From the NCBI RefSeq assembly GCF_000299035.1, contig NZ_JH921521.1:5001-69000 (forward strand): 64,000 bases of DNA. The letters are read 5' to 3'. The DNA comes from Bacillus bingmayongensis. Its GTDB lineage: Bacteria > Bacillota > Bacilli > Bacillales > Bacillaceae_G. The number at the start of each line of letters is the position of its first letter. Within the stretch, counting starts at the first letter, position 1. Both the position numbers and the translations under genes were made by a program. The notes below the pieces were generated by a model. That model had not been told where the DNA came from. It made no database searches and saw only the letters and a program-made list of their open reading frames with translations. Shown here piece after piece: positions 26,270 to 28,569 of the stretch.

Positions 26270-26345
26270 TACTTCTAAAATACACCCATTAATATTGCTC
26301 TATTTACTAATTCAAAGGTTATTAGCCAATGGAAATGAGGTATTT

Positions 26346-27476
26346 ATGAAAACGCTATTTAAGCAAGCCATTGTATATCCCATTACTTCTTCCAAATTTC
26401 AAGGAGATGTATTGGTTAAGCACAATCAAATCGCTGCGATAAAACCACATATTGAGTCAACTCAAGATATGACTGTTATTGATGCAAAAGCCCTTCACCT
26501 TTTACCAGGATTTATCGATGTGCATACTCATCTTGGCCTATATGATGAAGGTACTGGTTGGGCTGGAAATGACGCTAATGAAACATCTGAAGTATTGACA
26601 CCACATATCCGTTCTTTAGATGGTATCCATCCTTTTGATATTGCTTTTCAAGATGCGGTTCAAAGTGGGATTACAACTGCACATGTTATGCCCGGAAGTC
26701 AAAATATTATCGGCGGGACAACATGTGTGATTAAAACCGCTGGAACCTGTATCGATCACATGATTATTCAGGAACCTGCAGGATTAAAAATTGCATTTGG
26801 AGAAAATCCAAAACGAGTTCATAGTAATGGTACAAAGGAATCAATTACTCGTATGGGAATTATGGGATTGCTTCGTGAATCTTTTTACGAAGCACAACAT
26901 TATGGAAATGAAGCAGATTTTCGAATGCTCCCTATTCTAAAAGCACTGCGCCGGGAAATCCCAGTACGTATCCACGCTCATCGGGCAGATGATATTCTTT
27001 CCGCTCTTCGCTTTGCAAAAGAATTCAATCTTGATTTACGTATTGAACACTGCACAGAAGGACACTTTATTGTAAACGAGCTTGCCAATCAACACTTAAA
27101 AATATCTGTTGGCCCGACATTAACACGCCGATCAAAAATTGAACTAAAAAATAAATCATGGGATACGTACCATACTTTATCAAAGCATGGGATAGAAGTC
27201 TCTATCACAACAGACCACCCCTATACTCCAATTCAATATTTAAATGTTTGTGCAGCCATCGCTGTCAGGGAAGGATTAGATGAAAAAATTGCATTAGAAG
27301 GAATTACAATCCTCCCTGCTCGAAACTTACGTTTAGAGAAAAGAATTGGAAGTATTGAAGTCGGAAAAGATGCCGATCTTGTATTATGGACACATCATCC
27401 ATTTCATTATTTAGCCAAGCCCGTACTAACTATGATTGACGGAAAAATAATTTACAAAAAAAATAAAAAAAACTAG
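26346..27476 (+). CDS. Amidohydrolase, imidazolonepropionase-like
   Basis: 376 residues of the metal-dependent amidohydrolase superfamily. HxH at LLPGFIDVHTHLG, further ligands in RIHAHRADD, RIEHCTEGH and TTDHPYTP, and a C-terminal composite beta-sandwich with IEVGKDADLVLW. The pattern matches the group annotated as imidazolonepropionase-related amidohydrolases; it is not in a histidine-degradation cluster here, so the substrate is open. ATG 26346 has GAGGT upstream; the longer frame from 26235 overlaps yfhF and is rejected. Confidence 0.88.
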   Translation: MKTLFKQAIVYPITSSKFQGDVLVKHNQIAAIKPHIESTQDMTVIDAKALHLLPGFIDVHTHLGLYDEGTGWAGNDANETSEVLTPHIRSLDGIHPFDIAFQDAVQSGITTAHVMPGSQNIIGGTTCVIKTAGTCIDHMIIQEPAGLKIAFGENPKRVHSNGTKESITRMGIMGLLRESFYEAQHYGNEADFRMLPILKALRREIPVRIHAHRADDILSALRFAKEFNLDLRIEHCTEGHFIVNELANQHLKISVGPTLTRRSKIELKNKSWDTYHTLSKHGIEVSITTDHPYTPIQYLNVCAAIAVREGLDEKIALEGITILPARNLRLEKRIGSIEVGKDADLVLWTHHPFHYLAKPVLTMIDGKIIYKKNKKN

Positions 27477-27485
27477 TTTATTTTT

Positions 27486-27516
27486 TTGACTAGATAAAGT
27501 ATTATACGATTATAAA
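27486..27516 (+). promoter_or_regulatory. Candidate sigma-A promoter for the tRNA-like leader
   Basis: TTGACT (27486-27491) followed 18 bases later by TTATAA (27510-27515). It precedes the structured leader at 27551. Spacing is slightly long, so this is tentative. Confidence 0.4.
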
Positions 27517-27550: not shown

Positions 27551-27640
27551 ATTCATTTCAAATTGATGAATGGGGAAGGCAAATGGTGCGCCACCAGCGT
27601 TATAGACTGGTTCTAGTGGGTTCGATTCCCACCCCGAAAT
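27551..27640 (+). ncRNA. tRNA-like structured RNA / leader
   Basis: A 5' hairpin (ATTCAT 27551-27556 with ATGAAT 27666 minus 100, i.e. 27566-27571) is followed by a tRNA-like series: short D-like arm GGC...GCC (27578-27592), five-pair anticodon-like stem ACCAG/CTGGT (27593-27611) with a 9-base loop, 4-base variable region, and a canonical T arm GTGGG-TTCGATT-CCCAC (27616-27632). The acceptor pairing is poor (about 3-4 bp) and no CCA is encoded. It looks like a degenerate tRNA or a tRNA-mimicking regulatory RNA. B. cereus is known to make a tRNA-like small RNA (tRNAOther); whether this is it could not be settled, and no CCA anticodon is evident here. Confidence 0.6.
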
Positions 27641-27685
27641 TTTTTAAAGATTGATATAAAAATTTCGAGGGTGGGGTGTTTTTTC
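27629..27685 (+). terminator. Terminator overlapping the tRNA-like T arm
   Basis: CCACCCCGAAATTTTT (from 27629) pairs with AAAAATTTCGAGGGTGGGG, about 16 pairs with one bulge, followed by TGTTTTTT. Its 5' arm includes the 3' side of the T arm, so T arm and terminator cannot both form. It stands 33 bases before the acetyltransferase gene. Confidence 0.8.
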
Positions 27686-27717
27686 GTCATGCTACCCTCA
27701 TGTGAGGAGGAGTTAGT

Positions 27718-28275
27718 ATGTTAAAAAAACGCGACTTACACGACAGCCACGTTCTATACGATTTAATGGTGGATCCTGCTGTCTTCCCTTTTGTGCGTCA
27801 AAAGGCTTATTCATATGAAGAGTTTTTGTTTTTAACAAAACAAACAATAGAAGCTGAAGAGCGTGGTGAATTAATTTCACGCACAATTCTAGATGAATGG
27901 GGAAACCCTATCGGCACGATTACTTTATTTGATGTGCAAGAAAAAGCTGGGTTTCTTGGCACATGGCTTGGAAAACCTTATCATGGCCAGGGGTATAATA
28001 AATTAGCAAAAGATGCTTTTTTCAGCGAGCTTTTCTATGAGTTAGATATTGAAACAATCTTTATGCGCATTCGCAAAGTAAATATTCGTTCGATGAAAGC
28101 AGCGGAAAAATTGTCATATGTAAACCTAGCAAATGAAACTAGAAAAGCTGTTTATGATCAAATTAACGCAAATGAGGAAGTATATAATTTATATGAGATT
28201 GTTAAAGATCAATATACACTTGCTACAATGCGTGACACTACATTCCAAGATACACATCATTTAAAAGAAGCGTAA
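27718..28275 (+). CDS. GNAT-family N-acetyltransferase (RimJ/RimL type)
   Basis: 185 residues. GNAT fold with acetyl-CoA-binding region around GTWLGKPYHGQGYNKLAKDA (motif A, near 82-100) and IFMRIRKVNIRSMKAAEKL (motif B), typical of RimJ/RimL-like enzymes acting on protein N termini or small amines. Start ATG 27718 with GAGGAGG upstream. Directly downstream of a tRNA-like leader and a terminator, so its expression may be attenuated. Acceptor substrate unknown. Confidence 0.88.
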   Translation: MLKKRDLHDSHVLYDLMVDPAVFPFVRQKAYSYEEFLFLTKQTIEAEERGELISRTILDEWGNPIGTITLFDVQEKAGFLGTWLGKPYHGQGYNKLAKDAFFSELFYELDIETIFMRIRKVNIRSMKAAEKLSYVNLANETRKAVYDQINANEEVYNLYEIVKDQYTLATMRDTTFQDTHHLKEA

Positions 28276-28522: not shown

Positions 28523-28569
28523 CTTATCCCACATTAACGGGCTTTTACCGCCCGTTAATGTGGGATAAG
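28523..28569. repeat. Perfect 20-bp palindromic hairpin
   Basis: CTTATCCCACATTAACGGGC and its exact reverse complement separated by 7 bases. The arm repeats the terminal motif of the dispersed repeat at 28890-29035 (GTTAATGCGGGATAA). No T-run follows, so it is more likely a small mobile hairpin than a terminator, though it may block transcription after yfhE. Confidence 0.8.

Follow-up and report, generated by a model that had tools for sequence, protein, structure and literature searches.

What is a sequence with the outline of a tRNA doing in front of an acetyltransferase gene? The locus lies in the window, by which we mean the whole stretch of 64,000 nucleotides of Bacillus bingmayongensis DNA that was analysed. 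A sequence-only reading had described a canonical T arm, an anticodon-like stem with a 9-base loop and a D-like arm, arranged in tRNA order and lacking CCA, and all of these are found where it had placed them. Its acceptor stem, described as poor, is in fact a conserved acceptor-like stem of 3 bp, GGG/CCC. The resulting cloverleaf, composed of closing stem, D-like arm, anticodon-like arm and T arm, spans 27573-27635 (GGG-AA-GGC-AAATGGTGC-GCC-ACCAG-CGTTATAGA-CTGGT-TCTA-GTGGG-TTCGATT-CCCAC-CCC). The leader that contains it is a real, widespread, structured RNA with a tRNA-like domain, and probably a regulatory RNA that is not matched in Rfam at threshold; its switching is proposed from the logic of its pairings. 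Judging from these, we put at roughly 55% the probability that it acts in cis as a riboswitch-like ON switch with a tRNA-like sensor. Coordinates are collected in Table 1.

Table 1. Parts of the leader and its gene (window positions)
Feature	Position	Strand	Remarks
Candidate -10 element TATTATA	27500..27506	+	putative promoter, from sequence
Closing (acceptor-like) stem P1, 3 bp, GGG/CCC	27573-27575 / 27633-27635	+	
D-like arm GGC-AAATGGTGC-GCC, loop with GG	27578..27592 (stem 27578-27580/27590-27592)	+	
Anticodon-like arm ACCAG/CTGGT, 9-base loop	27593..27611 (stem 27593-27597/27607-27611)	+	loop variable in sequence and length
T arm GTGGG-TTCGATT-CCCAC	27616..27632	+	T loop invariant
Switching strand CCCACCC	27628..27634	+	3' strand of T arm and P1, or 5' arm of long hairpin
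Hairpin P5, CGAAATTTTT / AAAAATTTCG	27635..27667	+	10 bp in window (27635-27644 / 27658-27667)
Strand GAGGGTGG	27667..27674	+	possible partners: switching strand (from 27669) or 27692-27699 (P6)
T-run TGTTTTTT after long hairpin	27677..27684	+	terminator-like in window, rare in relatives
Anti-Shine-Dalgarno CTACCCTC	27692..27699	+	3' strand of P6; alternative Shine-Dalgarno partner
Shine-Dalgarno region GAGGAGGAG	27704..27712	+	assigned from sequence
GNAT acetyltransferase gene (Pfam Acetyltransf_3)	27718..28275	+	most likely the controlled gene

The leader shares with true tRNAs (RF00005) the order of the cloverleaf, the T loop and the GG of the D loop, by which its predicted fold qualifies as tRNA-like. 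Unlike them, it has a closing stem of 3 rather than 7 bp and a variable anticodon-like loop, which in the window measures 9 rather than 7 bases; it carries no CCA, lies inside an mRNA leader and continues into the mRNA. The element is no tRNA gene. The Rfam tRNA model scores 27573-27635 at 23.6 bits against a gathering score of 29 (E 0.012, 401 bases searched against all families). At threshold, Rfam matched neither the window nor any leader in the 20 loci scanned, and no leader among those loci reached the tRNA gathering score. ARAGORN calls no tRNA in the window; among 131 distinct leaders it calls five (L010, L034, L091, L140 and L160, as Glu, Cys, Lys or unknown). We consider these calls spurious; leaders of this sort could be mistaken for tRNA genes in annotation.

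The likeness can also be followed from the leader towards tRNAs. Covariance model R2, which comprises the element only, retrieves bona fide tRNA genes with E down to 2.4e-8 per genome. Its 24 non-leader matches across the phylum are 13 tRNA-Gly, 8 tRNA-Gln, 2 tRNA-Asn and 1 tRNA-His, and the top one is a tRNA-His at 42.4 bits. Among nine tRNA clusters, which had been preselected as matches of model R1 and are therefore not a neutral sample, the best match is tRNA-Gly in six (ARAGORN) and also in L089 (by reading), tRNA-Cys in L145 and tRNA-His in L090. The T arms of the 10 tRNA-Gly examined differ from that of the leader at 1 of 17 bases. This difference, and the occurrence of Gly, Gln, Asn and His types side by side among the matches, speak against singling out tRNA-Gly as the nearest tRNA with an identical T arm, and the leader may or may not descend from one particular tRNA.

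Conservation and covariation settle the reality of the cloverleaf, which sequence comparison confirms as being beyond chance. The alignments, which were selections, comprised 48 of 61 distinct cores, 45 rows, and 91 rows (90 distinct), the last of which holds L134 and L135 shifted by one base. In the 90 distinct sequences, 99.7% of the cloverleaf cells are paired, and 30 cells in 6 pairs are altered on both sides in a compensatory manner. None of 500 shuffles, which ignore relatedness, attains any of five covariation measures, and all five drop when the partners are slid; covariation is also present in the earlier 45-sequence alignment. Four of the five pairs of the anticodon-like arm are changed on both sides, as are two of five in the T arm, where 100% of the cells are paired. 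P1 and the D stem show no covariation, being too invariant for it to be assessed there: the D stem is paired in 99.6% of cells, and the P1 positions are G-C in 90, 90 and 88 of the 90 distinct rows, with L134 and L135, which have one additional linker A and are entered one base off, as the exceptions. The T loop, the D-loop GG, the linker AA and the TA preceding the T arm are invariant, and RNAalifold on its own yields the cloverleaf. Compensatory changes across relatives had been proposed as the check on this fold; they do occur, though in relatives that do not belong to the B. cereus group, none of the 80 loci kept from the GNAT protein scan being titled as a species of it. A protein-coding explanation was rejected because the anticodon-like loop changes in length without keeping to whole codons; assuming a 5-bp stem, it measures 3 to 11 bases across the 131 leaders. 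A GGTG/CACC hairpin, a potential rival to the D-like and anticodon-like arms, was noticed by eye.

The distribution of the leader follows that of one gene family. The best 80 of 280 relatives' loci from a GNAT protein scan were kept (GNAT identity 71-84%), and all 80 carry the leader, in nearly identical form, ahead of the GNAT gene; a strict pattern of leader plus hairpin fits 80 of 81 sequences including the window, L042 being short of one downstream-strand base. A wider sample consisted of 299 genomes of the order of G001, an Ectobacillus panaciterrae genome. The first covariance model matches 226 of these (E 0.001), the match in G192 being a tRNA, and the GNAT is present in 229. In a scripted comparison of the 299, the leader accompanies the GNAT in 225 of the 229 GNAT-positive genomes and occurs in none of the 70 GNAT-negative ones, G192 being the only genome with a match but no GNAT. 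The four GNAT-positive genomes without a leader match (G035, G078, G157 and G238; loci L190 and L195-L197) encode GNATs of 51-60% identity, and inspection by eye found no leader within 260 bases upstream of the gene. In the class, 28 of 348 genomes gave a match; among 398 genomes of the phylum, six matches score 78-86 bits and the next 42.4 bits, and the 24 weaker matches inspected are all true tRNAs. Plasmids gave a single match, from Cytobacillus spongiae.

At the level of loci, the GNAT gene adjoins the leader in 60 of 61 strong cases (L081-L086, L091-L144, L146) and in all six loci of a further set. The exception, L146/L152 in G079, has no GNAT; a gene for a DUF5698/DUF2179 protein is the next one found there. 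G079 carries three copies of the leader, one of which (L151) precedes a GNAT gene and then a DUF5698/DUF2179 gene; in each of six genomes examined there is one strong copy. The comparisons of leaders rest on 170 loci with a GNAT match, a set outside which L146/L152 falls; 165 of these also fit the leader pattern, and 131 leaders are distinct. Of the five misses, L131 has a leader for which the pattern is overly strict, and none was seen in L190, L195, L196 and L197. The motif TATNATA occurs 20-130 bases upstream of 91 of the 131 leaders, as against 31.0 (s.d. 4.7) in mononucleotide shuffles, at a median distance of 72 bases from the cloverleaf. T-rich sequence ahead of this motif was noticed by eye.

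Downstream of the cloverleaf, the sequence-only reading had seen a 16-bp terminator sharing its 5' arm with the T arm. The sharing is confirmed: since the 3' strand of the T arm is common to both folds, cloverleaf and long hairpin are mutually exclusive. To that extent the earlier proposal is supported, namely a leader that accompanies a GNAT gene and in which tRNA-like fold and downstream hairpin rule each other out. The hairpin itself is present, with 17 bp and one bulged A, formed by CCCACCC (27628-27634) and 27635-27644 with GGGTGGG (27669-27675) and 27658-27667. Its role as a conserved terminator did not hold up, since a pattern scan found a T-run after the long hairpin in only 5 of 131 leaders, the window among them; the conserved T-run after a competing hairpin that would mark an intrinsic terminator attenuator is thus missing. 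The extension of the hairpin, which excludes the T arm and P1, reaches at least 4 bp into the T-arm strand in 120 of 131 leaders (bulge 0-2, G-U permitted). The first pair of P5 competes with P1, and its remaining pairs are compatible with both folds; six P5 pairs are changed on both sides among 48 sequences, each in only 1 or 2 sequences, L034 being the clear case.

The conserved pairing leads instead to the Shine-Dalgarno sequence. The strand GAGGGTGG can pair with CTGCCCTC to form P6, and a leader's own partners pair on average at -16.2 kcal/mol as against -14.3 kcal/mol for swapped ones. This difference was reached in 0 of 5000 permutations, which ignore relatedness, and the own partner has a median rank of 26 of 111; the test covered 111 distinct pairs, which came from 122 leaders after exclusion of the nine that lack the pattern. 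L191, L193, L094 and L133 are clear covarying cases. The CCCTC of the P6 3' strand can alternatively pair with the Shine-Dalgarno sequence: 114 of the 131 leaders allow such a hairpin with 5 bp or more, against 77.5 (s.d. 4.1) in 20 shuffles, a control that is itself high; in the window the pairing reads CCTC/GAGG. A T-run stands just upstream of the start codon in 10 of 131 leaders, in several directly after the Shine-Dalgarno hairpin, which suggests additional control of transcription.

Predicted energies back this arrangement in part. Over the 131 leaders, forcing or forbidding the T arm yields a mean energy difference of -0.67 kcal/mol (s.d. 2.64), i.e., the two folds are near equal. The mean openness of the Shine-Dalgarno sequence is predicted at 0.295 with the T arm forced versus 0.228 otherwise; forcing the T arm makes it clearly more open (by >0.2) in only 19 leaders, and the reverse holds in 1. 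The predicted folds of L034 and L107 match the proposal exactly and that of L191 nearly so. For the window, the fold lacking the T arm is the more stable one by 6.2 kcal/mol, and both folds leave the Shine-Dalgarno sequence equally open (0.34 and 0.33). Taken as predicted, the leader combines what a riboswitch is expected to have, namely a conserved, covarying aptamer and a platform exclusive with it. In L138 and L144 the cloverleaf is kept and the long hairpin is absent; by analogy with riboswitches, whose aptamers outlast their platforms, these two may have kept the sensor. That both of them, like L154, L155 and L159, have different platforms speaks against the proposal.

The chain of mutually exclusive helices makes the cloverleaf most likely the ON state. 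Were it stabilised, GGGTGG would be left free to pair with CTGCCCTC in P6; CCCTC, engaged there, could not mask the Shine-Dalgarno sequence, and the GNAT would be translated. Were it not stabilised, the long hairpin would capture GGGTGG, CCCTC would bind the Shine-Dalgarno sequence, and the gene would be off. Transcription may be halted as well, at the T-runs that follow the Shine-Dalgarno hairpin in some relatives or the long hairpin in the window. As the stabiliser we favour a small molecule, perhaps akin to the substrate of the GNAT, which would be bound at the elbow and the conserved four-way junction. A bolder version, which we offer only tentatively, is that a tRNA, or an RNA closely mimicking one, was recruited as the sensing part of a new class of riboswitch, whose elbow and junction sense a molecule acetylated by the GNAT in three quarters of the order's sampled genomes; it would then have been missed by RNA catalogues because it resembles a degenerate tRNA.

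The tie of the leader to a single gene family fits equally well with autoregulation, in which the GNAT protein would bind the tRNA-like leader of its own mRNA much as E. coli ThrRS binds the tRNA-like thrS leader. The co-occurrence of leader and gene (225/229 versus 0/70) and the single strong copy in each of six genomes agree with this, and some GNATs do act on aminoacyl-tRNA. Nevertheless, we consider autoregulation rather unlikely: the predicted fold of this GNAT is nearest to those of FdhC, SpeG and RimL-type enzymes, none of which, or of similar GNATs, we know as RNA binders; one of the three leader copies of G079 has no adjoining GNAT gene; and, with the cloverleaf as the ON state, binding by the GNAT would mean positive feedback. 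The tRNA-like domain might alternatively be read by something else, be it a tRNA-modifying or tRNA-processing enzyme or the ribosome directly. Elbow-binding factors recognise the T loop and the D-loop GG, which are invariant here. In addition, tRNA-like leaders alone boost translation in vitro according to the accessible part of one report (PMC9142559). Such a reader by itself would leave the conserved junction bases and the covarying P6 unexplained, and we hold it to be less probable still.

The two remaining explanations treat the element as something other than a leader of the gene. If the element were, as the sequence-only reading had suggested, a stable sRNA of tRNA-like shape that ends at a terminator of its own, the long hairpin and T-run of the window would be accounted for; the rarity of that T-run among the 131 leaders, the tie to the GNAT gene and the pairings of P6 and the Shine-Dalgarno sequence make this very improbable. 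A tRNA pseudogene or phage attachment site, for which the resemblance to tRNAs speaks, is hardly credible given the compensatory changes, the order-wide conservation and the outcome of a search of 50,697 phage records, none of which matched 27560-27680 at E 1e-5. The riboswitch-like ON switch remains the reading that we prefer.

Among known systems, the T-box likewise occurs as a leader in Bacilli and combines mutually exclusive helices with a link to tRNA; here, in contrast, the leader itself is tRNA-like, and nothing in the window or the 20 loci reaches the Rfam threshold of the T-box model. The closest precedent is the yjdF (azaaromatic) riboswitch, which this leader resembles and yet differs from. 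In the accessible text of PMC9142559, yjdF is a tRNA-like ON switch, said to be related to tRNA-Lys, whose T-loop pairs with the Shine-Dalgarno sequence in the OFF state, and acetyltransferases are mentioned under yjdF riboswitches; in that of PMC10987639, the stems of its crystal structure surround a T-loop-like ligand pocket. By this account, the two would have in common an mRNA leader with a tRNA-like fold, a D-loop/T-loop elbow and ON switching at the Shine-Dalgarno sequence (PMC9142559). They differ, as far as those texts describe yjdF, in that the T-arm strand here pairs with a third strand rather than with the Shine-Dalgarno sequence, and in that the junction has AA in place of a longer purine-rich stretch; the gene here is a GNAT. 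Even at E up to 10, the yjdF model RF01764 found nothing in the leader of the window; nor did it match any leader in the 10 genomes searched (9 with the leader), and G066 holds a yjdF element separate from its leader. Conversely, the leader model gives one weak match of 15 bits in the yjdF locus L205 (2560-2606), at a place other than the yjdF site, to judge by the length of the locus (3105).

The B. cereus tRNAOther, to which the sequence-only reading had likened the leader, is likewise a tRNA-like RNA outside translation. Kinship is not supported: in the accessible text of PMC3399842 it has a Trp anticodon and lies beside a thioesterase gene, within long transcripts, so that anticodon and location set it apart by description rather than by sequence. 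The guanidine-IV riboswitch and a variant candidate are described as controlling GNAT genes, upstream of which they lie (PMC9788692, accessible part); the leader differs in that, as judged by Rfam, neither the window nor the 20 loci gave a leader match at threshold. The accessible text of surveys of candidate RNAs does not mention such a motif, and no report of it was met in the accessible literature, including PMC6429828, PMC11109978, PMC8632094 and PMC2864571; it may nonetheless have been described elsewhere.

If the proposal is true, the leader would be a second tRNA-shaped gene switch, unmatched by the yjdF model, with a more regular cloverleaf and present in 225 of 299 sampled genomes. 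It should also serve as a handle on an uncharacterised, well conserved acetyltransferase, since identifying what folds the leader would likely reveal the substrate or partner of the GNAT. A note of caution extends to annotation in general, in that a leader with a degenerate tRNA match may be a regulator.

The GNAT belongs to Pfam Acetyltransf_3 by sequence match; no NCBIfam family was matched, nor any PDB sequence at E 0.001. A fold search with its predicted model (mean pLDDT 84.5) returned 465 chains at E 0.001 or better, the best 50 at TM 0.53-0.75, and FdhC, SpeG, RimL, RimJ and MccE are among those best 50 of 465; these matches to a model are not specific enough for naming a substrate. Directly upstream of the leader lies an amidohydrolase gene (26343-27476), a homolog of which precedes the GNAT gene in 15 of 19 loci examined (of 80); this neighbour points to no substrate either. 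An FMN riboswitch lies near one leader (L125, 884-1021). Farther along the window, a perfect inverted repeat with 20-bp arms and a 7-base loop was seen by eye at 28523-28569, 3' of a yfhE-like gene.
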